Below are positions 770-32,513 of a stretch of DNA of 63,719 nucleotides, piece by piece (position 1 is the stretch's first letter; each line of letters begins with the position of its first letter). The notes under the pieces are model-generated. The model worked only from the letters and a program-made list of their open reading frames with translations, had not been told where the DNA came from and did no database searches. Source of the DNA: a virus; the IMG/VR virus record IMGVR_UViG_3300036851_000548, positions 1-63,719 of that record; one strand, given 5' to 3'. The position numbers and the translations under genes were made by a program.

Positions 770-1650
770 AGGAGTCCGAGCGTGCGGAGTATCGCGATCT
801 CGTCGTCCTCGCGCGGCGGCGGGGCGGCGTGCGCGAGCAGTCCGTGCAGGCGCTTCGCCTCCGCGACGACCCCTGCCGTCACCACCGCCGTGGTCGCTGG
901 CTTCGCGACCGAGGGCGGCGCGTAGTCGAACTCCCCGGCGACCCCGGTCTCGACGACGAGGGGGTCCGCGTTCCGGAGCGCCTCGTCCAGTTCGGCGGGG
1001 ATCCCCGTGAACCGCCGCTTGGCCGCGGTCTGCGGGAGCGCCGCGTTGGCCTCCTCCGCGTAGGACCCGCCGACGGCCTTCGCGGCGCGGGCGGCCAGCG
1101 GCGCGTCGAGGTCGAGCGCGACGCCCGTACGCGCAACCTTCGCGCCGGTCGAGGCGAGGGCGGCGTCCGCCTCCCCCGACGCTGCCGTCGTGGAGGCGTG
1201 GGCCGCAGCCGACGCGGGCGCGCCGTCGGTCTCGCCGGGGATGCCGGTGGTGACACGCTTGGGGAGCACGGCCGCGAGCGCGGAGTCCTGTTCCTCCGCG
1301 AACCCGGTCGCGGCGAGCTTGGCGGCGCTGGCGGCGGGTGCCATGTCGGTCTCGGCTGCGATCCCCGTGCGGACGGCGCGGCTTCCAAGCGGCGCATCCG
1401 TCTCGGCTGCGATCCCCGTCTGCCTTGCGTGGGCGACTGACGAGGCGGGTGCGGCGTCGCTCTCCTGCGCGACCCCGGTCGAGAGGCGCCGCGCCGCACT
1501 TGAAGTTAGGGCGGCGGCGGTCTCGGAGCCGATGCCGGTCTGACGGGCGTGCTGCGCGCGGGAGACGAGAGCGCTATCGGTCTCGGCTGCGATGCCGGTC
1601 ACGACAGTCTGGCCGCCACCGGCCTGCGGCCAGAAGAAGAGCACGCTCAC
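766..1650 (-). CDS. Protein of twelve 20-residue repeats
   Basis: A 294-residue protein made almost wholly of tandem repeats of about 20 residues with consensus TGIAAETD-x-AL-x-S-x-A-x-x-A (residues about 16-253, twelve copies, copies 4 and 5 slightly shortened). A charged C-terminal tail ends the protein. GTG start, with GAGGGG a few bases upstream. It lies among the virion genes, so a fibrous or surface structural role is the best guess. I do not recognise a named family. Confidence 0.7.
   Translation of the reverse strand: MSVLFFWPQAGGGQTVVTGIAAETDSALVSRAQHARQTGIGSETAAALTSSAARRLSTGVAQESDAAPASSVAHARQTGIAAETDAPLGSRAVRTGIAAETDMAPAASAAKLAATGFAEEQDSALAAVLPKRVTTGIPGETDGAPASAAAHASTTAASGEADAALASTGAKVARTGVALDLDAPLAARAAKAVGGSYAEEANAALPQTAAKRRFTGIPAELDEALRNADPLVVETGVAGEFDYAPPSVAKPATTAVVTAGVVAEAKRLHGLLAHAAPPPREDDEIAILRTLGLL
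892..1605 (-). repeat. Twelve tandem 60-base coding repeats
   Basis: This is the DNA behind the 20-residue repeats. Copies have diverged at the nucleotide level but keep the TG-x-x-x-E-x-D core. Copies 8 and 10 are the most degenerate. The regular length suggests growth by in-frame duplication. Confidence 0.75.
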
Positions 1651-1653
1651 GGA

Positions 1654-2097
1654 CTACCCCTCGACGTTCGCCTTGGCGAGATCGAGATGGTGGCGCGCGT
1701 CGGCGGGGCCTCGGGCGTAGGTCTCGACCCGGCGCCTCGCATCGTCGACGAGGCGCTCCTGCCTCGCGATCATATGCTGTTCCTCGTCGCCGCCGCGAAG
1801 TCGTTCGGCCTCGCCCTCTGCCGCGGCGAGCGCGATCTCGGCGTTCCTGAGCAGGGTGTCGGCGCGCTCGACCTCGCGCTCGGCTGCCGCGACCTGTTCG
1901 ATCCGGAACGTCTCCCACTCCTCGTCGAGCTGCTCCCGCAAGCAGGAGGCGTGGTTATCGGCTGCAAGGATCGCCGCGGAGCGCGGCGTCTTCGCGCGAT
2001 TCCACGGCACGGCCTCGTCGACCACGCCGTGCTCGGGGCACTCGATGGTGACCCACCACTGGCCTTCGGCCTGGTCCAGGTGGACGCGATCGCTCAT
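1654..2097 (-). CDS. Coiled-coil protein of the head module
   Basis: 147 residues from the ATG that overlaps the upstream stop (ATGA). The N-terminus has CPEHG and a lone later Cys. From about residue 70 the sequence is a heptad-like helix rich in Ala, Glu and Arg, so a long coiled coil is likely. Not recognised. Position among virion genes suggests a structural or assembly role. Confidence 0.6.
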   Translation of the reverse strand: MSDRVHLDQAEGQWWVTIECPEHGVVDEAVPWNRAKTPRSAAILAADNHASCLREQLDEEWETFRIEQVAAAEREVERADTLLRNAEIALAAAEGEAERLRGGDEEQHMIARQERLVDDARRRVETYARGPADARHHLDLAKANVEG

Positions 2098-2825
2098 TCG
2101 AGGGTCACCACCAGCAGGACGCCCCACACACCGACGGTGCTCGCCGTGATCTGGATCATCCTCACGCCGTCGCCCTCCGGCAGGACGATCTCCTGGATGC
2201 TCGGGCCTTCAGGAACCCAGTTGATCATCGCCATCAGCGCCGCGCCGGGACGCGTCTCCTCCGGGTCGACCGCGACCCCGAACAGGGTGAAGTCCTTCGT
2301 GGCCCCGCCCGTCGCGGCGTGGCGGCACGTGATCTGCGCCGGGATCGCTGCGTTCGCCGGGTCCGCTGGTCGGCCGGTGACCGCTGTGCCCCCGGTCCCG
2401 ACGGCGGAGGTGAGGTCGACGTCGAAGAGGTGCCCGACCCCCGTGATCGCGGCCATGTTGTGCTGCAGGAACAGCCTCTTGACGCGGACTGTCTTGCCGC
2501 TACCGGCGCCGTTGAACAGGTCGATGACGATCTCGTTCTGCGCCCCGGCGTCGTACGGCGACCAGTAGTAGTACGTCGGAAGCGTGTCGTAGATGTGGCC
2601 CGACGAGGCCGCGAGCATCACGACCTGGTGTTCCTTGCCGTTCGCGAGCTGAGTCGCGACGGTCGCGCCGGAGCCGGGGGTGACGAGGACGCTGTCGTTC
2701 GCGAAGCTGCCGACCAGGCCCGGCGCCTGCTCGGCCATCCTGATCAGGTCCCGGACGTGCTCTTCTTCCTCGGCGCGTTCCGCTTCCGGCCTGCCGGTCT
2801 TCGGGTCGAGGAGGACGCCGCGCAC
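2094..2825 (-). CDS. Probable virion protein, unknown
   Basis: 243 residues from GTG at 2825, 8 bases after the upstream stop; the frame stays open further upstream but there it runs into the neighbouring gene. A short acidic helix (residues 12-35) is followed by a beta-rich body with many Gly, Thr and Val residues. I know no named family. The place between the AAA+/protease block and the repeat protein suggests a head or connector component. Confidence 0.6.
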   Translation of the reverse strand: MRGVLLDPKTGRPEAERAEEEEHVRDLIRMAEQAPGLVGSFANDSVLVTPGSGATVATQLANGKEHQVVMLAASSGHIYDTLPTYYYWSPYDAGAQNEIVIDLFNGAGSGKTVRVKRLFLQHNMAAITGVGHLFDVDLTSAVGTGGTAVTGRPADPANAAIPAQITCRHAATGGATKDFTLFGVAVDPEETRPGAALMAMINWVPEGPSIQEIVLPEGDGVRMIQITASTVGVWGVLLVVTLE

Positions 2826-2833
2826 GCGTGCGC

Positions 2834-3316
2834 CTAGCTGGCTGTCGCTCGGAAGAACCCGGACGCGTTCAGCTGCCAGATGATGTCGGTGCCGTCCGGG
2901 GTCACCGCGAAGTCGAGGCCGACGAGCGGGACGATCGTCGCGTCGGTTCCGACCGTGGTGTCCGGGTCGTAGCAGACGAGCAGCTTCCCCCACGCGCCCC
3001 CGGCGGCCGCGACGGCCGCCCAAGTCTGGTCTGGCATGTCGACCTCTGACTTGTCCGATCCGTCGGTGACGGTGATCACGATCCCGCCTGCCTGGTCGAT
3101 CACCTTGCGGGCGTAGCCGGTGTTCGTCGCCTCGTCGTTGGCTGCGGCGAGCAGGTCTGCGAGCGTGTCGTAGTCGCGGAGCGTCGCGTCGGGTTCGATC
3201 CCGGCGGCCTTGAGGATCACGATGACGAGCGCGGAGTTCGCCGGGTCGTTCGCGTTCACGCGTGCAGCGAGTTCGGAGACCCGGCCGGTCGCGATCGTGA
3301 AGACGAAGTCAGACAT
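2834..3316 (-). CDS. Conserved phage structural-type protein
   Basis: 160 residues. The plan (N-terminal GRV..., 'DPANSALVIVIL', 'LRDYDTLADLL', then 'CYDPDT', 'TDATIVPL' and 'TPDGTDI') matches a family often found beside tail and capsid genes of actinophages, where it has no proven function. The ATG overlaps the upstream stop by 8 bases. A minor virion or decoration role is likely. Confidence 0.65.
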   Translation of the reverse strand: MSDFVFTIATGRVSELAARVNANDPANSALVIVILKAAGIEPDATLRDYDTLADLLAAANDEATNTGYARKVIDQAGGIVITVTDGSDKSEVDMPDQTWAAVAAAGGAWGKLLVCYDPDTTVGTDATIVPLVGLDFAVTPDGTDIIWQLNASGFFRATAS

Positions 3317-5321
3317 CGGTCACGTCCTCCTGCGTGTAGAGCGTCGACCCGTCCTCTAGCTTCTCTACGCGGACGACGCGCGGCTTCGGTGCCTCGATCG
3401 AGGCCGTGACGTGGACGGGGGCGGGCGGCTGCGCTGGCACCTCGTTGCGGACGATGACCTGCGCCTCTGACGGCGCGACCGTTATGGCCGGTGGCGGCTG
3501 CGCCGGTACGTTGACCGAAATCTGCGCGGGCGCCTGCGCGGGCACGTCGATCAGCGGCTCGACGCGGATCGCGCCGTCCGCGAGCGTGATGGGCGCGTCG
3601 ACGACGAGCGTGTCCGGCCCCTGACGCGCGACCGTGATGCCGGGCAGGTGGACGTTGAACGTCGGCGCGGGGTCGGCGGGCCTGCGTGCGAACTGTTCGA
3701 TCACGTCGAGCGCGCGGTGCGCGAACGCCGCGTCCTGCGACACAGGCTGCGCCGAGGCGGGCGGATCCGGGTCGGCCGGGATCTCGCCGAGCGGCTCCGC
3801 GGCGAGGGCGAGCACCTCGGCGAGCGCGGCGGCCTCGTCGGGGTCCCCGAGCGCGGCCGACCTGTAGACGACCTCCCACTCGTCGCCCTCGGGGAGCGCG
3901 GCCTCAGCCGAGGCTTCGACCCACTCGACGCCGTCGATGGCGAGGAACGCGGCGACGGCCGCGTCGTACTCGTCGTCGGTCGTCCAGTCGGCGGAGACCC
4001 AGGCGACGACGCCCTCGTCGGCGTTCCAGGCGGTGTCGCCGTAGCCGCCGTCCGGGGCGTGCATGGCGGCGACCTCGCCGATCTCGCGTCCCTTCGCGGT
4101 CTCCGCGACGACCGCCCCGGCGGTCAGCGACGCCGCCAGGTCTCGGGCGTCCTCCGGCTCGGGGTCGTCGGGCTGGTCGCGCTCGGGGAGCGGGTCCTCC
4201 TGGTCGCCCCGGAGCGCGTACATCTCCGCGACCGTCATCGGCACCTCGACGTCGCGGCCGAGCCACGCGGACGCCTCGTCCGGATCGAACGGCCCGAACG
4301 TCAGCTGCGACGCGCACCGGCCGGGGCGGCGGACAGCGGGCGTCAGCTCGCCGAGCTCGTCGTTCGTGGTGACGAGGCAGAGGACGCGGAGGCCCTGCCC
4401 GATCATCCCGTCGACGACGTTCAGGAGCCGGGAGAGGCCCTGCCCGTACTTCTCCTTCGCGTTCACGCTGAGGAGCTCGCCGGTGTCCTCCAGGATCAGC
4501 ACCCGCCACTTCCCCTCGGCGGCCTGCTCCTGGTAGACGTCGCCGGTCGTTGGCTCCATCACGTCGTAGGAGTCCGCGAGCAGCACGTCGATCATGTACG
4601 ACGGGTTGTCGACGAAGAACGAGTCCGGGTCTGTGATGTAGTGGAACTCCGCCCACGGCGCCCACTCGGACGCGAGCGCACGCAGCGCCCACGTCTTCCC
4701 CGTCCCCGGCGGGCCCTGCCAGAGCATCAGCTGCCCGTCGGCGCCGGGGCCGTCGTGCCACGCCATCACGCCGTCGAGTTCGCCGCGCACCTCAGCGGTG
4801 TAGTTCGAGGCGATCGGCTCCCACGGGGACGCGTCGATGCGGCGCAGCCGCGACTGCGGCCCGAACGGACCCATCGACCAGAAGGTGATCGCGACCCGCT
4901 CGTCCTCGATGTCGGAGAGGTACGAGGCGGGGTACCCGGCCCGGAACGCGGAGCAGGCGGCGTACGCGGCGGCGAGGTCGCGCGACGCGGCCTGGACGCT
5001 GAACCAGCCGCCGTGCAGGGACGCGTACGCGATCGTGCCGTCGTCGAGCCGCCAGATGGCGCAGTGGGAGCCGTCGTGGAACTCGGCCCCCGCCCCGTCG
5101 AGCGCGGCGACCTCGCACGGCCACTGCTCGGAGGCGAACTCCGTCAGCCCGGCGGCCAGCGCGGACTCGTAGAAGTGGCGCAGCGCGGGCGGCCCCTGCG
5201 TCATCTCGTAGGTGGCGAGGAGCGGGGCCGCGGCGGCGGTCAGCGACGACCGGAGTCCGCGGCGGCGGTCGGCCTCGCTGCGCGGGCGCCTGCGCGTCCC
5301 GGCGGTGACGGCGTGCCGCAC
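3309..5321 (-). CDS. AAA+ ATPase in the head module (DUF5925-like)
   Basis: 670 residues from GTG at 5321, just after the protease stop. An N-terminal domain of about 180 residues resembles the DUF5925 region that precedes AAA domains in actinobacterial proteins. The AAA+ core has Walker A GPPGTGKT (203-210), Walker B LILEDTGE (about 275-282), sensor-1 TTN (318-320) and RRPGR as the likely arginine finger (about 331-335). A long acidic, proline-rich tail with repeated VPAQ units ends in a basic-acidic segment. AAA+ machines remodel proteins. In this setting it could act on head assembly or be packaged. That role is inference. Confidence 0.75.
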   Translation of the reverse strand: MRHAVTAGTRRRPRSEADRRRGLRSSLTAAAAPLLATYEMTQGPPALRHFYESALAAGLTEFASEQWPCEVAALDGAGAEFHDGSHCAIWRLDDGTIAYASLHGGWFSVQAASRDLAAAYAACSAFRAGYPASYLSDIEDERVAITFWSMGPFGPQSRLRRIDASPWEPIASNYTAEVRGELDGVMAWHDGPGADGQLMLWQGPPGTGKTWALRALASEWAPWAEFHYITDPDSFFVDNPSYMIDVLLADSYDVMEPTTGDVYQEQAAEGKWRVLILEDTGELLSVNAKEKYGQGLSRLLNVVDGMIGQGLRVLCLVTTNDELGELTPAVRRPGRCASQLTFGPFDPDEASAWLGRDVEVPMTVAEMYALRGDQEDPLPERDQPDDPEPEDARDLAASLTAGAVVAETAKGREIGEVAAMHAPDGGYGDTAWNADEGVVAWVSADWTTDDEYDAAVAAFLAIDGVEWVEASAEAALPEGDEWEVVYRSAALGDPDEAAALAEVLALAAEPLGEIPADPDPPASAQPVSQDAAFAHRALDVIEQFARRPADPAPTFNVHLPGITVARQGPDTLVVDAPITLADGAIRVEPLIDVPAQAPAQISVNVPAQPPPAITVAPSEAQVIVRNEVPAQPPAPVHVTASIEAPKPRVVRVEKLEDGSTLYTQEDVTDV

Positions 5322-5323
5322 GG

Positions 5324-7780
5324 CTAACCGGCCACCCGGGCGGCGAGCGCCGCGACCCGCCCGTCGGCGGCGGCGCGAAGCGCGTCGATCCGGACGAGGT
5401 CTTCCTCGCTCAGGTGCTGCTCCTCGACGTGGATCCCGGCGGCGACGAGCGCGAGCACCTCCGCGCCCTCGTCCCCGGCCGCGACGAGCGCGCGGGCGCG
5501 CGGGACGGGGAACCCGGGGACGTTGACGGCGAGCAGCGCGACGAGCTCCAGGTTGCCGTCGACGTTCCGCCAGTCGCCGGAGAGGACGGCTCCGCGCAGG
5601 TCGCGGGCCTTCTCCGCGTCGATGTCGGGGCGGAGCGCCCCGGCGACCCAGATGCCGTGCTCGTCCTCGCCCACGGTCACGTCCGCGGCTGCGGTGCCGG
5701 TGTGGTCGTAGTGGGCGGTCGCGGCCTCGCTGCGGAGCCGCCGGTCGGCGTGCCCGGTGTCGAGCGTGATCGTGCCGCAGGGAACGGACTCGCCGCCCTC
5801 GCACTCGACCGCCTTCAGGAGGAAGTACGCGTAGTCGGTCTCGGACGTCGGCGCGGTCGTGCACACGTCGGGGATCCCGATGTGGCAGGTGTCCCAGGCG
5901 GCGGCGTGTCCGAACACCCGGCCGTCCTCGGTGACCGTCAGCGGCGACAGCCCCTCGAACGCGGGGTCCGCGAACCACTCGGCGGGGGGCCTGACCGGCG
6001 CGAGACCGGCGACGGACGCCGTCAGCGGCCCCGGATCCCCGGCGCGAGCGGCGACGCACGTGAACCCGGCCTGCTGCGTGACCGTGCAGATGGCCGGGCT
6101 GGCGGCGGAGACGAGCGACGCGGCCAGCTCGATCGTCGCGTCCGCGAACGCCTGGAACGGGCACACCGTGGTCGCGCCGATGACCGCCTCCGTGATGACG
6201 AAGATGGTGTCGTCGGCCTCGCCGCCGAAGAGGATGTCGAGCAGCGTCGGCTCCTCCTCGTCGGCGGACATCTCGCGGGGCGCCCAGTTGCCGTCCTCGT
6301 CGAACCAGTCGGCGCGCGGGCCGACCTCGTACTTGTGGATGGCGAGGTCGACGCTGACGCCGCGGAGGGTGCCCTCGCCGACCATGCGGGCGATCTCCCG
6401 GCCGTACTCGGCGTCGTCGAAGATCCCGGACGCGCGGACCATGTTCCCCTCCCGCCAGATCTCGTCGATGCGCCCGGCGACGAGCGCGCCGTTGTGGCCG
6501 CCCTCGGTCGTCTCGACCATCGCCATCAGCGTCAGCGGCAGCTCGCGCCACGTCAGCGCGCCCGGCGCGATGGCGCGTCCGTCGTCGGTCAGCGCCGCCT
6601 CGGGCACGATCGACGCGGTCCAGCGGACGGCCGCGAGGTCGGCGCCGGTGCGCTGCGCGGGCACGGGGACGTCGGGGGACGGGTTCGGGGAGGGCAGCGT
6701 CTCGCCGGGCGCGAGCTCGTCGGGCAGCACGACCTCGAACGTCTCGGGGACCCGGGGCAGTTCGATCGTGGAGGTGTCGACCTCGATCGTGAAGTCCTGG
6801 AGGCTCGCGCGGATCGCGGCCGCCAGCACCCCGCCGTCGGTGGTGTCGACCGGCGCGCCGCCGAGGGTGACCCCGGCGAGGAACTCCTCGACGCTCGCGG
6901 GGGCGATCGTGAACGTCAGCCTCTCCGGCGGGGCGAGCGTGAGTTCGACGCGCGGGTCGGCGGGCGTCGAGTCCTCGGTCGCCATCTCGGAGTAGCCGCC
7001 GCAGGAGCAGGTGCCGCGGCCGTCCTCGTGGCTGCACGGCCCGTCGGCGCCGGTGTGCTCGTCGAGGCTGTGCCCGCAGGAGCACTTCGGGTTGTGGAGC
7101 AGCGCTTCGGTGACCGCCGCGAGCGCGGCCCTCTCAGAGGTCGCGAACCCGTCCGCGAACGCCTCCCCGACCGCTTCCCCGGCCAGCGTGGCCTCGATCT
7201 CCTTGGCGCGGCGGGCGAACTCGGCCTGCTCCGCGCCGATCTCGTGGTCGGTCTCCCCGATGCCGGGTCCGAGTTCGGCCCGAGCGAGGAGCACGGCCGC
7301 GGCGCTGAGACCGATGGCCGCGGCGGCGGCCTCGTCCTCGGCGGACGCCTCCCACGGCGGCTTGATGCCGTCGTCGCCGTACTTCTTCGCGGCCTTGCGG
7401 TAGTAGGAGGCGATCCTCGACTTGACCCCGGAGACGTCGGCGGAGGGGATGCTGACCCCGCCGCGAGCGCCCTGCACGGCACCGGCCGCGGCGGTGACGC
7501 CCTTCCAGACGGCGGTGAGCGTCCCCCCGCTGTTCGAGGCGAACGGGAGCTTGTACGACGACAGCGCGTCCGCGTCTCCGTCCGGGTCGCGCCAGAAGTG
7601 CGCCTTTCCGTACTGGCCCTCCGACAGGCTCTTCTTGGCGGCCGACGCGTCCCATGACGCGTCGCGGTCCGACAGCGGCAGGCTAGTGGATCCCGAGGCT
7701 GCGGCGGTGAGGGTGTCGCCCTTCTCCAGGGCCTCGCGCTCTGCCCGGCGGCGGGCGAGGCGGCGGTCGCGTGCGTTCAT
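5324..7780 (-). CDS. Capsid maturation protease (multi-domain)
   Basis: 818 residues from an ATG with AAGGAG upstream. Domains: an N-terminal segment (36-135) with 'GKAHFWRDPDGD' and 'VKSRIASYYRKA' typical of phage prohead-protease fusions; a Cys/His-rich stretch (233-262) that may bind zinc; a prohead-protease-like region with H429 (EGGHNG) and S476 (LRGVSVD) as probable catalytic pair; and a C-terminal domain (about 580-770) with 'GHAAAWDTCHIG' and 'DTGHAD', seen in actinophage capsid maturation proteins. It would cleave scaffold or capsid during head assembly. It has its own predicted promoter. Confidence 0.8.
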   Translation of the reverse strand: MNARDRRLARRRAEREALEKGDTLTAAASGSTSLPLSDRDASWDASAAKKSLSEGQYGKAHFWRDPDGDADALSSYKLPFASNSGGTLTAVWKGVTAAAGAVQGARGGVSIPSADVSGVKSRIASYYRKAAKKYGDDGIKPPWEASAEDEAAAAAIGLSAAAVLLARAELGPGIGETDHEIGAEQAEFARRAKEIEATLAGEAVGEAFADGFATSERAALAAVTEALLHNPKCSCGHSLDEHTGADGPCSHEDGRGTCSCGGYSEMATEDSTPADPRVELTLAPPERLTFTIAPASVEEFLAGVTLGGAPVDTTDGGVLAAAIRASLQDFTIEVDTSTIELPRVPETFEVVLPDELAPGETLPSPNPSPDVPVPAQRTGADLAAVRWTASIVPEAALTDDGRAIAPGALTWRELPLTLMAMVETTEGGHNGALVAGRIDEIWREGNMVRASGIFDDAEYGREIARMVGEGTLRGVSVDLAIHKYEVGPRADWFDEDGNWAPREMSADEEEPTLLDILFGGEADDTIFVITEAVIGATTVCPFQAFADATIELAASLVSAASPAICTVTQQAGFTCVAARAGDPGPLTASVAGLAPVRPPAEWFADPAFEGLSPLTVTEDGRVFGHAAAWDTCHIGIPDVCTTAPTSETDYAYFLLKAVECEGGESVPCGTITLDTGHADRRLRSEAATAHYDHTGTAAADVTVGEDEHGIWVAGALRPDIDAEKARDLRGAVLSGDWRNVDGNLELVALLAVNVPGFPVPRARALVAAGDEGAEVLALVAAGIHVEEQHLSEEDLVRIDALRAAADGRVAALAARVAG

Positions 7781-7820
7781 GGTGCTCCTTCTGCAGGAGG
7801 GGGGAACGTATCGAGGCGGA

Positions 7821-7841
7821 ACGCTAGCGCGGGGGGCGGCT
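7821..7841 (-). promoter_or_regulatory. Promoter P1 (AGCCG-N10-TAGCGT)
   Basis: AGCCG at 7837-7841 and TAGCGT at 7821-7826, exactly 10 bases apart, as in 14 other sites. Predicted start near 7814, giving a leader of about 34 bases with AAGGAG before the protease gene. The box is the AGCCG variant. Confidence 0.45.
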
Positions 7842-10215
7842 AACCCTGGGCGATGCGTCTCCGGAGTGCGGCGATCCTGTCCTGCGCGGCATCGACCTCG
7901 GCTGTGGCACGCTTGACCGCGCGGTCGTCTTTTGCGCGTCTCGCCCTTGTCCGCTTCGCCCTCACTTCCGTGCTGTGTCCGAGGACGCGAGGGAGTTCCT
8001 TCCGCGCGTCCTCGGCCGACATGTCGGTGACGGGCGTCCGCGCGTAGTCGGGAAGGAGGTCGTCCGCGGCAGGGGGCGGCACGGCTCGCGACTCGGGGGC
8101 CGAGCGTACCGTCGGCTCCGGCACGGCTAGCCTTTCGAGCGGGTCTCGGTCGGCGGACGCGGCCCGCGGGGCCTTCTCGTCCAGCACGCGTGCCGCGCGG
8201 GGGTTCAGGATCACGACGACGCTCGGGTTGCCCTGCCACGTCGTCTCTATCGCGTCGTACCCGTCCTTCACCATGAGTTCCCTTGCGCGCTTGAGCGCGC
8301 CGTCGCGATCGAAAACGTCCTCCATCTCCCACGCCTTTTGGTCGTATCGGTTCAGGAAGTTGAGCAGCTTCTTGGAGTCGTCCTCGGCCTTGAACACCTT
8401 CCGGGCGTTCACCGCGATCTCCAGGTTCTCGCTGCCGTATCTGTCCTTGCGCGCTTTCTGCGGCGTCGTGTAGAGGCCGTGGCCGAGCCTGATGTTGACG
8501 GACTTAGAGGGGTCGAACCCGCTTGTTTTGATGCCGCGCGCCCCGGCGAGGTTCGTCTGGTGGAAGACGGTCGGGGTGTCCCCGTATGCGCTGCCCGCCG
8601 TCCAGTCCGCGACGTCGTCCGGGTGGATCACGGTCGCGGACGGCAGGTCGATAGTGCGGGCGGCGGAGGTGGTGCAGGAGACGTTGAGCATCTCGTCTGG
8701 GTCGGGGGCGCTCCACCCGGCCGGTCCAGCCGCGGTCAGGGACGCAGCGATCCCGACGAGTGCGGCTTCGACGCGCTGCGTGTCCTCGTGCCCGGCGGCG
8801 CACGGGTGGTTCCCTCCCGCGGACGCGGTGACGGCCTCGGGGTCCTGCGTGTACCCCATCGCGCAGCGGCAGTTGCAGACCTCGGCCGGTGGCCCGGACG
8901 GGTCGCCGGGGTGCTCCAGGGAGGCGCCACCGACGTCGAAGTAGCCGTCGAGGGCGCGCGTCTGGCCGTCCAGGCCCGCGTAGGTCGCGTGCCGCGGGTA
9001 CTTGGCGCCGCGGGCGGTCATCCACGTCTTGAAGAACGCCTCGCCGGTCGCCTCCGCGACGATCCGGGTCGCAGCGAGGCTGCCGCCGTTGACGGCCCCG
9101 GCCAGTTCGGTGCGGGCGATCAGGCGCGCGCGGGCGGGTGCGGCCTCCCTCATCTTCGCGCGGATCGCGGCGGCGGTGTCGTCGATCGAGAGGCCCTCCT
9201 CGTGCGCGGCCCGGATGACGCGCATCACGTCCAGCTGCGTCGTCAGGGAGATGTGCCCGATCTGGCTGGCGGACTGCGCGAGCACCCGCTGCGCGACCGG
9301 GTGCGTGACGTCGAAGGAGAGGCCGACCCCCTCCAGGCTGGCGCGCATCATCGTCCGGACGACCTCCTGCCGGACGGGGTCGGTGCGCGTCCGCAGCTGC
9401 GCCGGGAGGCAGTAGCGCTCCTCCCCAGCCGCCGCGAGCGACGCGGTCGCGGCGGGGCGCCCGACGAGCGGGACGGGGACGATCTCGGTGTCGCCGCGGA
9501 CGACGAGCAGGTCGTCGAAGTGGAGCGGCGACCCGGACAGCGGCAGCATCTTCTCCAGCTCGCCGGGTTCGGGGTCGCCGTCGACGGTGATGTGCGCCTC
9601 GAAGCCGTGGTCGCGGCTGTAGCCGACCCCGGCGTCGACGAGCGCCTCGGTGACGGCGACGCGGAGCTCGACCAGGCCGGGCACGTCGGGGAGCAGGATC
9701 CCGACGCTGGAACCGTCGGGCATCCCGAACTGGCCGTATCCGCCGACCTGCCCGGCGAGCGGGGCGTGCTCGGCCGCCACGGCGGCGAGCGCGTCCGCGA
9801 CGGGGCGGAGGTCGCCGTCGACCTCGCCGAGGTAGCAGAGCGTGACGTGGAGGTTCTCGGCGGGGCCGCCGTCAGGGTCGGCGATGGCGGCGGCCTCGTC
9901 GGGACGCGGCTTCACGGCGACCATCGTGGAGTTCGCCTTCACGTCGACGGCGGCGGTCAGCGACATCGAGGCGAGGAGCCGCCTCGCCTCCCGCATCCCC
10001 ATCTTCTCGGCGGCGCGGACGTCGGCGGCGCGCAGGCGGGCGGCGGCGGCGAGGTGGTCGACCGCGAGCGCGGAGAACGCGCGGGCGGCCTCGTCCCCGG
10101 CGCGTTCGAGCACCGGCTCCAGGATCCGGGCGAACTTCTCCTCCATCTCGCGCGCACGCCGCTCGCCCTGCCGGAGCACGGCGTTGTGGCGGGCGGCGGA
10201 GGGCGCGTCCGGCAT
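7840..10215 (-). CDS. MuF head protein fused to 2H phosphoesterase and ART-like domain
   Basis: 791 residues; ATG overlaps the portal stop by 1 base (TGATG). Order: helical N-terminus (1-85); a 2H phosphoesterase (LigT/2'-5' ligase-like) domain with HVTL (123-126) and HITV (208-211) about 80 residues apart; a Mu gpF-like minor head domain (about 270-455) ending in the Cys cluster CNCRC (447-451); then a C-terminal domain (about 545-680) with FHQT (H552), GHGLYTTP (578-585) and YDAIET, a layout typical of ADP-ribosyltransferase toxin domains; last, a charged tail. MuF proteins sit at the portal, and MuF-toxin fusions are known from temperate phages. The 2H calls rest on clear motifs; the ART call is weaker. 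Confidence 0.75.
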   Translation of the reverse strand: MPDAPSAARHNAVLRQGERRAREMEEKFARILEPVLERAGDEAARAFSALAVDHLAAAARLRAADVRAAEKMGMREARRLLASMSLTAAVDVKANSTMVAVKPRPDEAAAIADPDGGPAENLHVTLCYLGEVDGDLRPVADALAAVAAEHAPLAGQVGGYGQFGMPDGSSVGILLPDVPGLVELRVAVTEALVDAGVGYSRDHGFEAHITVDGDPEPGELEKMLPLSGSPLHFDDLLVVRGDTEIVPVPLVGRPAATASLAAAGEERYCLPAQLRTRTDPVRQEVVRTMMRASLEGVGLSFDVTHPVAQRVLAQSASQIGHISLTTQLDVMRVIRAAHEEGLSIDDTAAAIRAKMREAAPARARLIARTELAGAVNGGSLAATRIVAEATGEAFFKTWMTARGAKYPRHATYAGLDGQTRALDGYFDVGGASLEHPGDPSGPPAEVCNCRCAMGYTQDPEAVTASAGGNHPCAAGHEDTQRVEAALVGIAASLTAAGPAGWSAPDPDEMLNVSCTTSAARTIDLPSATVIHPDDVADWTAGSAYGDTPTVFHQTNLAGARGIKTSGFDPSKSVNIRLGHGLYTTPQKARKDRYGSENLEIAVNARKVFKAEDDSKKLLNFLNRYDQKAWEMEDVFDRDGALKRARELMVKDGYDAIETTWQGNPSVVVILNPRAARVLDEKAPRAASADRDPLERLAVPEPTVRSAPESRAVPPPAADDLLPDYARTPVTDMSAEDARKELPRVLGHSTEVRAKRTRARRAKDDRAVKRATAEVDAAQDRIAALRRRIAQG

Positions 10216-12113
10216 CAGCCCAGGAGACCGGCGACGTAGTTCGTGAACGTCGAAGGAAGCGGGCCGGGCCGCTCCTGGTAGAGCGTGCGGACGGCGTGCT
10301 GCTCGACGGCCTGGACGACGCGCTCGACGAGGTCCTCGTCCGCGATGCCGTAGACGCGGAGCGCGTCCGCGATCAGGTCGCGGCACCCGGCCACGAGCGC
10401 GGCCTCGCTGCCGTTCAGGGAGCGGACGCGGTCGCGGCCGAGGATGGCGGCGACCTGGCCGGGCCGGACGCCGTCGATCGCCTCCAGCATCTTCGGGTCG
10501 CGCTTCGCGAGCGACCGGATCCGGTTTCCGGCGGCCTCGCGGGCGCGGAGCAGCGACAGGTCGGCGGCGCCGAGGACGCGCGCGACCGTCGCCGCGGAGA
10601 CGAGCGACGAGTCGTCGCGCTCGCCGGGCGGCTCGGGCGGCTCCTTCACGGCCTCCGCCGAGGAGGTGCCCGCGTCGATCGTGTCGTCGGCCGCGGTGGC
10701 GCGGCTCAGGTCCTCCTTGTCGCTGACGTGGCCGGTGACGGCGAGGACGCCGTCGTTGACGGCGACCCCGATCCGCCGCGTCATCTCGTCGGGGTCGGTG
10801 ATCGCGTCGCTGTCGTCGAACCCGGCGGCGTCGCGGAGGCTGGCGTCGCTGATCGCGAGCGACTTGTGCAGGTCCTTCGCGTCCTTCGTCCGGTCGGGGT
10901 GGTTGATGATCGCGGCGGCGTCGTAGCCGATGTAGAAGTCGCCCCAGTTCGTGACGCCGTCGGCCTTCAGCTGCGGCCGGAAGTACGCGGCGGAGAGGTC
11001 ATCGACGAGCTGCTGCGCCTTCGGCTGCAGGTGCCCCTTCCACGTCTGCTCGTCCACCTGCCACGCCGACCAGTGGTTCGCGTCGCCGAGGCCCATCAGG
11101 ATCTCGACGGGCATGTCGAGACCGATCGCGATCCGCTTGATGCACTCGTAGCGGAGGCCGGTCTCGGGGTACAGCTGCATCGGGTCGACGATCTGCAGGT
11201 GGTAGACGAGGTCCTTGACGGGGCGCGTCTCGTCGGTGGGCATCCGGACGACGAGGGGCACGACCGATGACGCGGCGCCCTCGTCGACGATCGGGGTCGT
11301 CATCGCGTCCACGAGGTCCTTCACGAACGGGTCGGCCTCAGGGTCCTCGTCGCCGACCGGCTCCGGCGGCGGCGGGCTGACTCGGTCGTCGATGAAGAGG
11401 ACGCCTGACCCGGCGAGCCTCGACTTCGCGCGCGCCCGCACCGACTGCGTCAGCAGGACGAGCTCCTCGCAGAGGTCGAGGACGCCCTGCATGGTCGAGT
11501 CCGCGAGCTGGGAGTAGCGCGGGTGCCGCTGCCAGAGCCTGTACGCGACCGCGTCGGTGTCGCCGACCGGCTCGAAGTCGGCCTCGCCGAGGTCCTTGTA
11601 GTTCTCGGCCTGCAGCGACGGCGCCTTCACGCGCAGGTACGTACCGCCCTGGATCCTCAGCTCGTCCGACGACAGCATCTCCCACTGCTCCATGTCGGTC
11701 TCGGGGTTCTTGGAGACGAACAGGATCGACTCGCCGGTCAGGAACATCAGCCGCCCGTAGGCGGAGAGGAGCGCGGTGCGGCCGCCGCCGGGGTCCTGCA
11801 CCCGCGCGAGCGCGTCGACGGCCTGCGGGTCGTCGGTCTCGACCAGCTCGCCGTCCTTCATCACGGCGGGGAAGAGCCGCAGCTGCGAGAGGCCGCGCGA
11901 GTAGAACTGCGCCGCGTACTTGATCTCGCCGAGCATGTCGTAGTAGGCGAACGCGCGCGACTGCCACGGCTGCACGAGGCGGCGGACGTCGTCGCCCTGC
12001 TTCTTCGCGTTGACGCGGGCGCCGGACGCCGTGAGCGCGTTCGCGCTCCTGTAGGCGGACGCGCCCGGGTTCAGGATCCGGGAGGCGGGCGGCCGTCGGC
12101 GGAGGATCGCCAC
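10215..12113 (-). CDS. Portal protein
   Basis: 632 residues, the usual portal size, from GTG. The region with 'RLMFLTGESILFV', the 'YPETGLRYECIKRIAIGLDMPVEILMG' segment and 'NHWSAWQVDEQTW' match actinophage portal proteins. It forms the dodecameric vertex ring through which DNA enters the head. It is directly followed by the MuF protein (1-base overlap), the classic order. Confidence 0.9.
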   Translation of the reverse strand: MAILRRRPPASRILNPGASAYRSANALTASGARVNAKKQGDDVRRLVQPWQSRAFAYYDMLGEIKYAAQFYSRGLSQLRLFPAVMKDGELVETDDPQAVDALARVQDPGGGRTALLSAYGRLMFLTGESILFVSKNPETDMEQWEMLSSDELRIQGGTYLRVKAPSLQAENYKDLGEADFEPVGDTDAVAYRLWQRHPRYSQLADSTMQGVLDLCEELVLLTQSVRARAKSRLAGSGVLFIDDRVSPPPPEPVGDEDPEADPFVKDLVDAMTTPIVDEGAASSVVPLVVRMPTDETRPVKDLVYHLQIVDPMQLYPETGLRYECIKRIAIGLDMPVEILMGLGDANHWSAWQVDEQTWKGHLQPKAQQLVDDLSAAYFRPQLKADGVTNWGDFYIGYDAAAIINHPDRTKDAKDLHKSLAISDASLRDAAGFDDSDAITDPDEMTRRIGVAVNDGVLAVTGHVSDKEDLSRATAADDTIDAGTSSAEAVKEPPEPPGERDDSSLVSAATVARVLGAADLSLLRAREAAGNRIRSLAKRDPKMLEAIDGVRPGQVAAILGRDRVRSLNGSEAALVAGCRDLIADALRVYGIADEDLVERVVQAVEQHAVRTLYQERPGPLPSTFTNYVAGLLG

Positions 12114-12986: not shown

Positions 12987-13062
12987 TAGCACCGGCGGGA
13001 TTCGAACCCGCGACCTCCGCGTTATGAGCGCGGCGAGATGGGCCTGGCTTCTCCACGGTGCG
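12987..13062 (-). tRNA. tRNA with CAT anticodon, initiator-like
   Basis: A 76-base cloverleaf: acceptor 6 pairs plus a C1-U72 mismatch, D-stem GAGA/TCTC with A11-U24, anticodon stem CCGCG/CGCGG with loop CTCATAA (anticodon CAT), variable AGGTC, T-arm GCGGG-TTCGAAT-CCCGC and discriminator A. The 1-72 mismatch, A11-U24 and the TGGAG-AGCC-GG D-arm match bacterial initiator tRNA rather than elongator Met or Ile2. The three G-C pairs above the loop are present but as GCG/CGC, not GGG/CCC. CCA is not encoded. No other tRNA was seen. Confidence 0.85.
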
Positions 13063-14075: not shown

Positions 14076-14288
14076 TCAGGTGATGTCGGCCGCGTTCGGG
14101 TCGTCGCGGGCTATCGCGATCAGCCAGCCTGCCGCCCACAGGAGCAGGGGGACGGCGATCCAGAGCTCGGCTGGCCCTTCGATCGCCAGGAACGTGAACA
14201 CGAGCGCCGCCAGCGCCGCGACGAGTCCGGCGACGAACAAGCGCCTGCTGTAGACGGTGATGCTGAGGACTGTGCTGGTCTCGATCAT
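14076..14288 (-). CDS. Two-helix membrane protein
   Basis: 70 residues; ATG with AAGGAGG, overlapping the epimerase stop (ATGA). Two hydrophobic helices (about 18-40 and 45-62) separated by a short acidic turn. First of several tiny membrane proteins interleaved with the glycan genes. Confidence 0.55.
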   Translation of the reverse strand: MIETSTVLSITVYSRRLFVAGLVAALAALVFTFLAIEGPAELWIAVPLLLWAAGWLIAIARDDPNAADIT

Positions 14289-15181
14289 GTTGCCTCCTTC
14301 TCGTTGAACCACTCGGCCGTCATGGCCAGACCTTCCTCGATCGTCGTCGCCGGTGCCCAGCCGAGCGCGGCGATCCTGTCGATGTTCGCGAGCAGGAACG
14401 GCGGCTCTCCCCCGCGTCCGTGTTCGAAGCGCACCGGCGCGCCCAGCATGTCGGCGACCTCGCGGGGGCTGCGCGCGGAGCCGGAGCCGACGTTGAGGAC
14501 GTGGATCCCGTCGAGCGCGAGCAGGTGCGCGTGCGCGGCGGCGAGGTCGCCCACGTAGACGAGGTCGCGCCTCTGCTCGCCCCGATTGTAGAGCGGCGCT
14601 GGCTCGCCCGTCGCGGCCGCCCGGATCAGCGCGGGCACGAGGTGCGTCTCAGGCCTGTGGTTCTCGCGGGGTCCGTACGGGTTGAAGTAGCGGAGCGAGC
14701 AGGCGTCCCACCCATAGGTGCGAGCCCACCCGAGGATCAGGTCCTCGGCAGCGAGCTTCGTCGCGGCGTACGGGGACGCCGGGGCCGCCGGGGCGTCCTC
14801 GGGGATCGGCCCGTCCGCAGACGCGAACCCGTACACGGCAGCGGTCGAGCTGTAGATGATCCGGCCGCACCCGGCCTCGCACATCGCGGCGAGGAGCGCC
14901 GCCGTGCCTCGCACGTTGGTCTCGAAGTACCCGCCGGGGTGCGCGCAGCTCTCCGGCACCGACGTCCTCGCGGCGAGGTGGACGACCGCGTCGACGTCGC
15001 AGTAGGCGGGAGCGAGGTCGGCGAGCGCGACCTGCGAGAAGGCGTCGATGTCCGCCCAGGCGTCCTCAAGCCGCGACGCGCTCAGGTCATCGACGACCTT
15101 CACCGAGTGGCCGTCGGCTTTCAGCGCAGCCGCGACGTGCTGGCCGACGAACCCCATGCCGCCCGTGACGAGGACCCTCAT
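14285..15181 (-). CDS. NAD-dependent sugar epimerase/dehydratase (GalE-like)
   Basis: 298 residues, the usual extended SDR length. Nucleotide-binding motif GGMGFVG (7-13), then 'VVHLAA', 'YSSTAAVYG' and the catalytic YAATK. It would epimerise or dehydrate a nucleotide sugar with NAD(P) in the cytoplasm, supplying the glycosyltransferases next to it. Starts at an ATG overlapping the upstream glycosyltransferase stop. Confidence 0.88.
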   Translation of the reverse strand: MRVLVTGGMGFVGQHVAAALKADGHSVKVVDDLSASRLEDAWADIDAFSQVALADLAPAYCDVDAVVHLAARTSVPESCAHPGGYFETNVRGTAALLAAMCEAGCGRIIYSSTAAVYGFASADGPIPEDAPAAPASPYAATKLAAEDLILGWARTYGWDACSLRYFNPYGPRENHRPETHLVPALIRAAATGEPAPLYNRGEQRRDLVYVGDLAAAHAHLLALDGIHVLNVGSGSARSPREVADMLGAPVRFEHGRGGEPPFLLANIDRIAALGWAPATTIEEGLAMTAEWFNEKEAT

Positions 15182-15945
15182 GCGCCGGGGGCGGGGTCGT
15201 AGATCAGCGTCTCGTCGGCGGCGGGGTCCTCGCGCCAGAACCACGTCCGGAAGTGCTCCAGGACGGCCTCGTCGGTGGCTCCCTGGAACATGCGCCAGTG
15301 CGCGCCGACGCTCGGATCCATGCCGGTGGCGGCGTAGGCGCGCTCGCCGTTCCGGATCTTGCGGAGGTACTGCTCCGGGCTGCGCCAGCTGTAGTGGCGG
15401 ATGACGAGGCCGGACGAGGTCACCCCGGTGCCTGGCGCCCAAGCGGAGTGGTTGCCCATCCGGATCTCCAGGCCGGGGCGGGCGCGGCAGCAGACCTTGC
15501 CGAGCGCGCCGTGCTCGCGCTGCCTCCACCCGATCCGCAGGAACGGCGACGGCTCGTCGGCGGGATCGAGCGCGGACGGTATGTGGTTGTAGAGGTCGGC
15601 GGTAACGAACGCGACGTCGGGAGCGAGTCCGGCGAGGAACGCGGCGAGGGTGCGGCCGTCGGGGGCGTACCAGTACTCGTCGGCGTCGCAGGGGATGACC
15701 CAGTCGAAGCCGCGGGCAAGCGCGTGCGCCGCGAGGTCGCTCGTCTTGCGGTCCTGGTAGTAGCCGACCTCGGGGTCGTCGATGACCTGCAGCGGCCCGC
15801 CGATAGCGCGGAGGACGTCGCGGGTGCCGTCGGTCGAGCCGTTGTCCGAGACGATCACGTAGTCGACCTGCCCGAGCAGGTGCCGGACGGTGTGCCCGAT
15901 GATGTCGGCCTCGTCCTTGACCAGCATGACCGCGCAGACGCTCAT
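15178..15945 (-). CDS. Family 2 glycosyltransferase
   Basis: 255 residues. 'MLVKDEADIIGHTVRHLL', 'VSDNGSTDGT' and the metal-binding 'PCDADEYW' give the GT-A fold of family 2. No membrane segment. It transfers a sugar from a nucleotide sugar to an unknown acceptor. Tightly coupled with the epimerase. Confidence 0.85.
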   Translation of the reverse strand: MSVCAVMLVKDEADIIGHTVRHLLGQVDYVIVSDNGSTDGTRDVLRAIGGPLQVIDDPEVGYYQDRKTSDLAAHALARGFDWVIPCDADEYWYAPDGRTLAAFLAGLAPDVAFVTADLYNHIPSALDPADEPSPFLRIGWRQREHGALGKVCCRARPGLEIRMGNHSAWAPGTGVTSSGLVIRHYSWRSPEQYLRKIRNGERAYAATGMDPSVGAHWRMFQGATDEAVLEHFRTWFWREDPAADETLIYDPAPGA

Positions 15946-16241
15946 TCTCCGTGCCTCGGGTCGTGCGGCTCCGGCTCGACCAGTGAGTACCTCCGCAGGA
16001 GCCAGTCGCCGAGGCGCCCCGTCCACGGCTGGTCTCCGAGCCAGACGAGCGGGTCGCTGAGAGGCCGGATACCGGCAGCCTTGAAGGCGAGGAGCATGCG
16101 AGCGATCGCGAGACCGAGCGTCGTGCCGAAGATCGCGGCGACGAGCGCGTCCTCTCGCCGTACGGCGATCACGACGAGGGCGACCACCAAGATCACGTTG
16201 AGCGCGCAGACCGACAGCGTCAGGCGGTGATAGGCGCTCAC
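15942..16241 (-). CDS. Small membrane protein
   Basis: 99 residues from GTG, coupled to the upstream gene. Two hydrophobic helices (about 6-25 and 33-52) and a soluble tail. Not recognised. Confidence 0.5.
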   Translation of the reverse strand: MSAYHRLTLSVCALNVILVVALVVIAVRREDALVAAIFGTTLGLAIARMLLAFKAAGIRPLSDPLVWLGDQPWTGRLGDWLLRRYSLVEPEPHDPRHGE

Positions 16242-16447
16242 CCGTGCACCGTATCGCGCAGGGGGCGGAGGCGTCCGCCGGGGTCGTGCGTCGCCCTGTC
16301 CCATGTCGAGTTGCAGAGGCAGACGTACTGGCGGATCTCGCCGCCGTGGTTGCGCCTGTTGGACGGGTGCCACGGGCAGTTCGGCTTGTGCTCTGGTTCC
16401 TTCGGCTGGCTAGCGGCGCGGCGCGGCCGGGCTCCGGCGCGGCTCAC
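16238..16447 (-). CDS. Small Cys/His protein
   Basis: 69 residues; GTGA overlaps at both ends. 'CPWH...CLC' (about 25-46) could bind one zinc. Basic and soluble. Not recognised. Confidence 0.45.
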   Translation of the reverse strand: MSRAGARPRRAASQPKEPEHKPNCPWHPSNRRNHGGEIRQYVCLCNSTWDRATHDPGGRLRPLRDTVHG

Positions 16448-16629
16448 GGTCGTCCCTCGGTGACCTTGCTGGAGTGGATCGCCATCGAGTGCAGGCCGTC
16501 GGCGTCGTGCCACTCGATTCCGAGACAGTCGCCCTCCCGGCCCCAGATGCGGACGGTCGTGCCCGCCTTCAGCACCGACCCGGATTCAAGCTGCACGTCC
16601 CGGCGGACGATTGCCGTCTCGGGGGTCAC
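16444..16629 (-). CDS. Small beta-rich protein
   Basis: 61 residues in a GTGA chain. The pattern 'GSVLKAGTTVRIWGREG' looks like a small beta-barrel (SH3-like). Function unknown. Confidence 0.45.
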   Translation of the reverse strand: MTPETAIVRRDVQLESGSVLKAGTTVRIWGREGDCLGIEWHDADGLHSMAIHSSKVTEGRP

Positions 16630-17306
16630 GGGCGCTCCGCGATGATCGCGAGCATGGCACGCCGGTCTTTCTTCGCGGCGAGGTACCGCTGCCCGAGCAC
16701 CATGTTTCTGCTGTGGTTCGCGTTCGCGCCGATCATCTCCTCCCACGTCCCCGTCGGGTGCCACAGGTGGTAGGCGTCGCCGCGGACGCGGACGGGGACC
16801 CCAGCGAGCGCCTCGCACGAAGCCATGAACGCGAGGTCGTCCCAGCCCCAGTCGACGAACCGCTCGTCGAAGCCTCCGACGGCGTCCCAGAGGGGGCGGG
16901 CGACGGCGAGCGCCTGACTCCACGTGTTCGGGTGCCTCGTCAGGCCGATGCCAGCGTCGTACGGCGAGAGGCGCCCTGCGAGCACGCCTTCCGTCCCCGG
17001 CTCGTCCAGCATCGTCAGGTGGTCGTGCGCGTACGTGAGCCTTCCGGTCGCGAGCGCGAGGGTGGCCGCCTCGCGCGCCTGCGCGGCGTCTGCGAGGACG
17101 ATGTCGGCGTCCGCTATCACGGCGACGTCCCAGGCGCCAGCGAGTCCTGCGGCGGCGTTGAGCGCCAGGCCGCGGTTGAAAGGACCGTCGTCGGAGAAGC
17201 CCTCGAAGACGCCGAACCCGGCGGCCTCCCACAGCGGCCGTGTGAACGCCCAGAGACGGTCGCGGGGACCGCGGTCGAGCCGCCGGGGGACGAGGAGCGG
17301 TATCAC
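16626..17306 (-). CDS. Glycosyltransferase (galactosyltransferase-like)
   Basis: 226 residues. 'VAVIADADIVL' supplies the DxD site and 'GGFDERFVDWGWDDLAF' is the acceptor-side motif of family 2/7 enzymes such as GalNAc/galactosyltransferases. Coupled at both ends by 4-base overlaps. Confidence 0.8.
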   Translation of the reverse strand: MIPLLVPRRLDRGPRDRLWAFTRPLWEAAGFGVFEGFSDDGPFNRGLALNAAAGLAGAWDVAVIADADIVLADAAQAREAATLALATGRLTYAHDHLTMLDEPGTEGVLAGRLSPYDAGIGLTRHPNTWSQALAVARPLWDAVGGFDERFVDWGWDDLAFMASCEALAGVPVRVRGDAYHLWHPTGTWEEMIGANANHSRNMVLGQRYLAAKKDRRAMLAIIAERP

Positions 17307-17986: not shown

Positions 17987-17987
17987 G

Positions 17988-18656: not shown

Positions 18657-18817
18657 GGGTGCCGCCTTGCGAACTCCTCCAGCCGGTTCAGCGGTCCGGC
18701 ATCGCGGGTTGCGAGCATCCACGACCGGGCCGCGATCCACGCGAACGGGTAGAGCACGATGACGACGAAAACGACCGGTAGAAGCACGACCCCAGCGAGC
18801 ATCTTCAGCGGGATCAC
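18653..18817 (-). CDS. Single-helix membrane microprotein
   Basis: 54 residues from GTG overlapping the upstream stop. One strong hydrophobic helix (about 5-30) then a charged tail. Function unknown. Confidence 0.5.
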   Translation of the reverse strand: MIPLKMLAGVVLLPVVFVVIVLYPFAWIAARSWMLATRDAGPLNRLEEFARRHP

Positions 18818-19353: not shown

Positions 19354-19601
19354 GGCTCGATCTTCTCCAGCACGTTCTGCATCGCGTAGACGGCGTAGCG
19401 GCCGTCCTCGCGGAGCACCTCGTAGCGGTACGAGGGCACCGTCCGCGCAGCTTCGAGGGCGCGGCGGCGGCGCTCGGCGCGCCAGCGGAACCGCGTGACC
19501 AGCTCGGGCTCAGACAGCACCTTTTCGTCGGTCTCGGCGACGCGGTAGCCCCACGGGACGCCCGCAACACTGAGCACGCGATCGGCTCCCCCTATCGCCA
19601 T
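19350..19601 (-). CDS. Hypothetical protein
   Basis: 83 residues; the ATG lies 10 bases inside the end of the FkbM gene. Arg-rich middle helix and a beta-like C-terminus ('YEVLREDGRYAVY'). Not recognised. Confidence 0.45.
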   Translation of the reverse strand: MAIGGADRVLSVAGVPWGYRVAETDEKVLSEPELVTRFRWRAERRRRALEAARTVPSYRYEVLREDGRYAVYAMQNVLEKIEP

Positions 19602-31094: not shown

Positions 31095-31115
31095 ATCCTA
31101 TCGCCTCGTCCGGAT
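31095..31115 (-). promoter_or_regulatory. Promoter P7 (ATCCG-N10-TAGGAT)
   Basis: ATCCG at 31111-31115 and TAGGAT at 31095-31100. The TAG is also the terminase stop codon. Predicted start 31088. Confidence 0.42.
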
Positions 31116-32513
31116 CGTCTCCAGGCGGTCGCCGACGCGCGGGATCCGGCCCTGCGGGACGCTGGAGGTGCCGCGGCGACCGGCGGCGCGGCCGGTGATC
31201 GCGTTGTGCGCGCCGGAGAGCGCGTCGACGCAGTCGTCCTTCGCGCCGTTCGGGAAGATCGAGACCTCGTCGAGGAACTCCAGCAGGTTCGGACACGTCT
31301 CCATGATCTGCACCAGCCCGTTGCCGACGGCGGCGGCGACGGGGCGCGCCCTGACCTCCTTCGCTGCGTTGGCGCCCTGGATCCTCGTCAGCCCCTCGTG
31401 GCACGCGAACCCCTGCAGCACCCGGCGCTTGTAGTTCGCGAGCTGCGCCTTCCCCGCCTGCCCGGGGTCCCTCTCGACGTAGACGGGGACGGCGCGGCCG
31501 TCCTCCTCGGCGGTGCGGCGGACGGTCTGCTCGACCCTGTCGTCCTGCCAGCGGCCCCGGACGATGTGGCGGACGGTGAAGGTGCCGTTTGCGTCGACCT
31601 CGTAGCGGAGCCCGACGGTCCAGTCGGGGTCGGGGTAGGCGGCGGACACCTCGCTCCCGGCGAGGTCCCAGTAGCGGAGCGACGACACGGCCGGGGCGAC
31701 CTCGTCGGGTGCGACGATCCGGAAGTCGTCCCGCTTGAACTTGCCGCCCTCCTCGGTCACGTCCCAGTCGCCGTCGATCAGCCGCTGCCGGTCGATCGGC
31801 GAGAGGTGCGCGAGCGATAGCAGGTAGGCGTCATAGTCGAGGTGCGGGTTGTCGTGGATCGTGGCGGGCACGAATACCGCCTGCGGGTCGCGGGTCGCGC
31901 GCTCGATGAAACGGCTCTTCACCCACTGGTGCCCGATGTCGCCCGGGTTGGACGCGGACCGCATCCGCAGAGGGATCTCGTCGAGGTAGCCGCCCTTCGC
32001 CTGCCGCAGGACGCGGAACATGGCGCGGTAGAGGCCCTCGGGGAACGACGTCAGCTCGTCGAAGCCGCAGAACGAGTACGACGGCCCCTTGTAGATCTTC
32101 ACGTCGGCGGGGGTGGCGAGGTACCCGAACCGGATGCTCGCGCCAGACGGGAACGTCCAGGAGCGCTTGGTGCCGTTCCAGTAGGCGTCGCTCGTGTCGA
32201 GCCAGTCGTGCGACGCCTCGATCAGGCCGCCGGGCTGCTCGAACTCGCCGAGGCTGGGGCGGAGCAGCAGCCCGTGGTAGCCGGGCACGTCGACGTACTG
32301 AAGCGAGGCCATCAGCAGCCCGTACGACTTGCCCGGCCCCGCTGCGCCTCCGAAGAACGCCTCCAGTTCGTCGCGGCGGAGGTACCACTCCTGCTTCGGC
32401 GTCGGCTCCAGCGGGCAGTAGGCGCGGGGAAGGCGGAGCGGTCCGAGCGCCTCCTCCAGCGTCTCCCAGGCGACGTCGTCGAGGTCGGCGGCGGCGAGGT
32501 CGAGGACGGTCAC
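31098..32513 (-). CDS. Terminase large subunit
   Basis: 471 residues from GTG overlapping the upstream stop. ATPase: Walker A GGAAGPGKS (55-63), Walker B 'SFCGFDE' (147-153). The C-terminal RNase H-like nuclease is shown by 'RYWDLAGSE' and 'KDDCVDALSGAHNAI'. It packages DNA through the portal. The TerS-like gene is 11 kb away, and a helicase and nuclease stand directly upstream. Confidence 0.92.
   Translation of the reverse strand: MTVLDLAAADLDDVAWETLEEALGPLRLPRAYCPLEPTPKQEWYLRRDELEAFFGGAAGPGKSYGLLMASLQYVDVPGYHGLLLRPSLGEFEQPGGLIEASHDWLDTSDAYWNGTKRSWTFPSGASIRFGYLATPADVKIYKGPSYSFCGFDELTSFPEGLYRAMFRVLRQAKGGYLDEIPLRMRSASNPGDIGHQWVKSRFIERATRDPQAVFVPATIHDNPHLDYDAYLLSLAHLSPIDRQRLIDGDWDVTEEGGKFKRDDFRIVAPDEVAPAVSSLRYWDLAGSEVSAAYPDPDWTVGLRYEVDANGTFTVRHIVRGRWQDDRVEQTVRRTAEEDGRAVPVYVERDPGQAGKAQLANYKRRVLQGFACHEGLTRIQGANAAKEVRARPVAAAVGNGLVQIMETCPNLLEFLDEVSIFPNGAKDDCVDALSGAHNAITGRAAGRRGTSSVPQGRIPRVGDRLETIRTRR

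Follow-up and report, generated by a model that had tools for sequence, protein, structure and literature searches.

A DUF5925-AAA+ ATPase encoded behind the head maturation protease of an uncultured phage group is a candidate processed head protein

We propose that the AAA+ protein encoded in the head module of an uncultured phage group, whose relatives infect actinobacteria, is a head protein that is processed by the maturation protease and bears a Bcs1-like ATPase. Judged from sequences and a predicted structure, this reading has a probability of roughly 0.5. The protein is probably built into the virus head and trimmed there, since it combines a slot behind the maturation protease with a likely cutting signal and with end pieces of the kind found in capsid proteins. 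A complete AAA+ ATPase with a head-protein tail inside a head module was the core of the original prediction and is borne out; the family as such is not head-specific, because relatives are found elsewhere. Comparison much strengthens the link of the protein to the head, and its presence in the virion is a prediction.

The window, i.e. the whole stretch of DNA analysed, is a virus record of 63,719 bases with a G+C content of 72%, and 100% of its predicted genes are on the minus strand. Along that strand the terminase large subunit (TerL) gene is followed by a long run of small genes, then by the portal, MuF and protease genes, the AAA gene, the phrog_26662 gene and additional genes up to the contig end (Table 1). 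The gene boundaries proposed originally, 3309-5321, are correct and delimit a minus-strand gene for 670 residues. The predicted position beside the capsid protease is likewise found, as just 2 nt separate the stop codon of the head maturation protease gene from the downstream GTG of the AAA gene. The window stops before the gene for the major capsid protein (MCP); in the relatives L007, L008, L009, L010 and L011 the MCP (phrog_777) gene follows 3.5-7.7 kb after the protease gene.

Table 1. Features of the AAA+ protein and of the neighbouring head genes in the window. Residue numbers refer to the AAA+ protein.
Feature	Position	Strand	Remarks
DUF5925-AAA+ protein, 670 aa	3309..5321	-	GTG start 5321, stop 3309
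N-terminal arginine-rich extension, residues 1-29, predicted propeptide	5235..5321	-	11/11 clade members; low pLDDT
Candidate protease site 1, LTAA, residues 27-30	5232..5243	-	predicted cut between A29 and A30
DUF5925-type N-terminal domain, residues ~38-190	4752..5210	-	Pfam 136-187; AlphaFold core model
AAA ATPase domain, residues 199-343	4293..4727	-	PF00004; Bcs1/YjoB-like fold
Walker A, GPPGTGKT, residues 203-210	4692..4715	-	
Walker B-type, LILED, residues 275-279	4485..4499	-	E-D order, not canonical D-E
Arginine-finger region, RRPGR, residues 331-335	4317..4331	-	
Candidate protease site 2, LTAG, residues 399-402	4116..4127	-	between ATPase core and C-terminal modules
GGYG domain, residues ~412-489	3855..4088	-	shared with L162 head protease and L178 MuF protein
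VPAQ-repeat tail, residues ~553-670	3312..3665	-	similar tail on the L162 head protease and in L036
Gene after the AAA gene, unknown	2834..3316	-	phrog_26662; overlaps AAA gene
Head maturation protease, 818 aa	5324..7780	-	phrog_859, phrog_18402
N-terminal TLTAAASG site and further LVAAG sites	in head maturation protease 5324..7780	-	
MuF head protein with 2H phosphoesterase domain	7840..10215	-	L-x-A-[AS] sites next to its domains
Portal protein	10215..12113	-	phrog_776; N-terminal ANALTASG site
Terminase large subunit	31098..32513	-	phrog_979

Several other minus-strand genes of the window were recorded. A repeat protein with TGIAAETDAALAS-like units, possibly located on the virion surface, is encoded at 766-1650, and comparable repeat proteins occur in L003, L007 and L162. 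The small protein at 107-769 is conserved near the capsid genes of relatives; its L003 homologue matches phrog_854 (glucosyltransferase). Judged by eye, the genes at 34874-38286, 39371-40885 and 51888-53294 are DNA-methyltransferase-like, and the run of small genes at 14285-25472 includes sugar-nucleotide, glycosyltransferase-like and methyltransferase-like genes. A single tRNA-Met (CAT) gene is located at 12987-13062 among the head-region genes.

The protein belongs to the DUF5925-AAA family, since both AAA (PF00004; E 4.8e-10, 40.4 bits, cut-off 21.2) and DUF5925 (PF19347; E 9.6e-10, 38.7 bits, cut-off 27) exceed the curated Pfam cut-offs and the ATPase motifs are present. The full motif set expected from the first reading, i.e. 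Walker A, a Walker B-type motif, sensor 1 (TTND, residues 318-321) and the arginine-finger region, was recovered, and nearly all of these residues are invariant across 10 homologues. In searches of Pfam and PHROGs, the ATPase domain was the one enzymatic domain detected.

The AlphaFold model of the full-length protein is poor (pLDDT 59), while that of the core is better (75.5). Comparison of the core model with known structures (VIA-align) gave Bcs1 (Z 12.9, 199 aligned, 3.6 Å) and B. subtilis YjoB (Z 12.6, 286 aligned, 6.0 Å, N-terminal domain included) as the best matches. The Walker B motif of Bcs1 and YjoB likewise has the E-D order. Proteasomal and other AAA proteins score within about 1-2 Z of these two, so the fit is not exclusive. 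The window protein shares ~12-20% identity with Bcs1 and YjoB over the aligned parts and differs from them in its phage head context and in having no visible membrane helix; no long hydrophobic stretch resembling the N-terminal transmembrane helix of Bcs1 was seen when the sequence was judged by eye. Bcs1 moves folded protein across a membrane (PMC12219900, PMC11143374). On the basis of the core model, the AAA protein may be read as a protein-remodelling ATPase.

In the viral collection, with near-copies counted once, the AAA gene lies directly behind the protease gene in 11 distinct contigs including the window, and the encoded proteins of this clade are 46-66% identical to the window protein. 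These contigs were found by a search with the AAA protein, with no selection for the slot; L029 was added via a protease search. DUF5925-AAA proteins beside capsid proteases, the subject of the check suggested originally, occur in these 11 contigs and in L172, where a distant AAA relative occupies the same slot between protease and capsid protein. The refuting condition named originally, a gene that is purely cytosolic and host-derived in related phages, does not hold, because each of the 11 clade members has the gene in the head slot.

AAA+ proteins are indeed not standard at this position: portal and protease of this type each match 848 cultured phage records, whereas the AAA protein has any match in 8 cultured records only, none of them shown in the head slot. 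Most other phages with this protease are without the AAA gene, and in Megan, Pureglobe5 and Atuin the capsid protein follows the protease with no AAA gene between. Arthrobacter phage Atuin (L018) encodes a 3113-aa 'DNA helicase' between portal and protease (1363-10704, plus strand), by annotation a further large ATPase within a related operon of head genes.

A wider search returned 26 viral loci and 52 bacterial homologues. The scan of bacterial genomes gave no relative with narrow patterns and the 52 cellular homologues with wider ones, and no consistent gene neighbourhood was found among the latter. In a maximum-likelihood tree, a 10-member head clade has a support of 100/100, L162 and L164 form its sister pair and L172 is a separate lineage. 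L172 has evidently recruited the AAA gene into the head slot independently. In L162 the AAA gene is among head genes on the opposite strand; it lies between terminase and portal in L164, just after the terminase in L163, near helicases in L168 and L169, and next to a DNA polymerase in L170. Cluster C2 mycobacteriophages carry it away from the head genes, and their tree position is near a Mycobacterium protein. The proteins from this cluster (Myrna gp262, ScoobyDoobyDoo gp256) and from actinobacteria have the same two domains and the same motifs, with ~37% identity to the window protein over the core, but lack both the L-x-A-[ASD] extension and the head modules. In ScoobyDoobyDoo, nucleotide-metabolism genes surround the gp256 gene, and the portal is ~37 kb away on a circular reading of the genome. 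Given these replication, packaging and chromosomal contexts, the family is general and one lineage has settled in the head slot. Since many relatives work outside heads, residence in the late operon could be secondary.

The pattern [x]-L-[TV]-A-[AS] is common to portal, MuF, protease and AAA protein of the window, and the motif recurs in portal, MuF and protease throughout the phage group. With the pattern fixed, there are 7 matches in the 2911 aa of these four window proteins and 6 in 17,455 aa elsewhere (p 9e-4). That the motif is short and alanine-rich and not confined to head genes counts against a processed head protein. The same bias towards head proteins is present in the cultured relatives Megan (p 8e-3), Pureglobe5 (p 2e-3) and MelBins (p 1.5e-4). 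All proteome tests used one fixed five-residue pattern, as 'LTA' alone is too common; MelBins is the sole fully blind test, because some matches in Megan and Pureglobe5 were already known when the pattern was chosen. In at least 36 of 48 MCPs the motif is found at the domain/maturation boundary (SLVAAGGWCAPSE, SLVASGGLCAPVTP). HK97-type capsid proteins lose their delta domain at the corresponding boundary. For these MCPs, a sequence search found no solved relatives in the PDB, and the papers found contained no published N-termini or cleavage data. Short protease motifs are described for T4 (L/I-x-E), phiKZ (S/A-x-E) and SPN3US (A-x-E) (PMC9026906, PMC10052503). The termini of T4 Alt are cleaved, with propeptides at both ends (PMC9026906), and SPN3US propeptides comprise 20-24 residues (PMC10052503). 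From the head-protein bias, the MCP boundary and the short-motif precedents we infer that the L-x-A-[AS]-type motif is a candidate recognition site of the maturation protease.

In the AAA protein, the N-terminal extension ends in L-x-A-[ASD] in every one of the 11 clade members and is mostly arginine-rich. Among 66 homologues elsewhere, an N-terminal L-x-A-[ASD] occurs once, as a chance match (counts uncorrected for phylogeny). The extension is poorly conserved overall, and L27 and A29 are among its few invariant residues. Site 2 closes a low-pLDDT stretch (residues 374-402); it is weaker than site 1 and weak in some members (L008). Both candidate sites are within or border stretches of low model confidence that are probably flexible, or whose low pLDDT may stem from a shallow alignment instead. 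The AAA protein of L172 is without the N-terminal motif and extension, while the MCP and protease of L172 carry the motif. L172 is thus an exception and counts against a processed head protein.

The C-terminal modules point in the same direction as the extension in the head clade. The GGYG domain shares 48% identity with the beginning of an L162 protein assigned by its matches to head maturation protease families; the end of that protein, a VPAQ/VPEQ tail, resembles the VPAQ tail (35% identity). The VPAQ tail, which had been noted as a trait of virion-type proteins, is therefore real and has a related counterpart on a head maturation protease. The GGYG domain is also present in the L178 protein with 2H and MuF regions, directly after an LTAS motif. 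The C-terminal region has nothing in Pfam at E 0.1, weak matches only in PHROGs (E 0.03-0.06) and no tblastn match in phages; its identity came from metagenomic relatives alone. In L036, known from a single 6.3-kb contig, the AAA slot holds a 337-aa protein that lacks the ATPase core and whose N-terminal peptide runs in frame into the C-terminal module. L009 and L010 show the reverse, an ATPase core not followed by the module. By sequence, the two ends are parts of a head protein type and the ATPase is a load that can be exchanged.

Observations on MuF proteins were made in addition. The giant MuF-type protein of L178 (3100-5890, plus strand) has 2H and GGYG and, by eye, a HAD-like and a possible RelA/SpoT-like region, with its domains separated by L-x-A-type motifs. 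The C-terminal region of the window MuF protein (7840-10215, minus strand) looks ADP-ribosyltransferase-like by eye; neither Pfam nor PHROGs gave a match for it. At the 2H position, the L015 protein has a weak match to GNAT instead.

Taken as a processed head protein, the gene product would be a precursor with a DUF5925/Bcs1-like AAA+ ATPase as its payload. This precursor would be made late with portal, MuF and protease, as suggested by the gene order and the 2-nt spacing. The arginine-rich N-terminal extension and the C-terminal head-protein modules may bring the precursor into the prohead. The neighbouring maturation protease would cut it at L-x-A-[ASD] sites, presumably behind the alanine, and the capsid protein, portal and MuF, as well as the protease itself, are probably processed by it in the same way. 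After cutting, residues 30-400 or so, which form the ATPase core, would stay in the head. Least certain is the last step, in which the core might either remodel proteins of the maturing head or leave the head together with the DNA and act at once on a host or phage complex. The complete sequence of packaging, trimming by the protease, ejection with the DNA and remodelling of a host or phage protein complex in the first moments of infection is a possible but tentative form of this reading.

The main rival is an assembly chaperone, absent from the mature virion, whose ATPase would act in the infected cell on head precursors (for example protease, MuF or portal), much like Bcs1-type AAA proteins, which work on proteins. 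We regard it as a possible but tentative explanation, consistent with the close spacing of the AAA and protease genes and with the Bcs1/YjoB-like fold; the L172 gene, recruited independently to the same slot, also encodes a protein without propeptide. However, a chaperone leaves unexplained why the L-x-A-[ASD] extension is specific to the head clade, why modules are shared with head proteins and why the ends occur without the ATPase in L036.

It is rather unlikely that a cellular or replication-type AAA gene merely moved to the late operon and has no head role, the motif and tail being by-products of recombination with head genes. Such a passenger would fit the relatives encoded next to helicase, DnaB and polymerase genes or on numerous actinobacterial chromosomes, and also the fact that the majority of phages with this head module lack the AAA gene. 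Against it stand the stable slot and the motif, conserved in a clade whose members share 46-66% identity with the window protein, as well as the second independent recruitment into the slot (L172). An accessory for packaging or DNA handling, with the ATPase acting on DNA or the terminase/portal complex and not on proteins, seems very improbable, because the window already has TerL and the nearest fold is that of protein-remodelling AAA proteins; the genes beside the terminase or between terminase and portal (L163, L164) and near helicases (L168, L169) would agree with it.

The processed head protein that we favour resembles known systems in part. T4 IPI-III and Alt and the cleaved head proteins of giant phages likewise have an N-terminal peptide ending in a shared short motif (PMC9026906, PMC10052503). 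Their motif is L/I-x-E or A-x-E, in contrast to L-x-A in the window, the payload is unrelated, and both cleavage and virion location are predictions here. Polyvalent and MuF-fused proteins carry enzymatic domains on head-module proteins and are thought to be injected (PMC5512222). The window MuF protein with its 2H phosphoesterase resembles these. The AAA protein, in contrast, lacks MuF and contains a single enzymatic domain, where polyvalent proteins combine two or more different enzymatic domains in one chain; the term 'AAA' is absent from the main text of that paper. In a limited search of the open-access literature, no description of a Bcs1/YjoB-like AAA ATPase among processed head components and no paper on DUF5925 was found.

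For the phages of this type, [SA]-L-[TV]-A-[AS] provides a concrete candidate cleavage motif for a maturation protease with matches in 848 cultured phage records. The motif can be checked directly in laboratory actinophages without the AAA gene. If the AAA protein is a processed head protein, the functions potentially carried in tailed-phage capsids would include protein remodelling as well.
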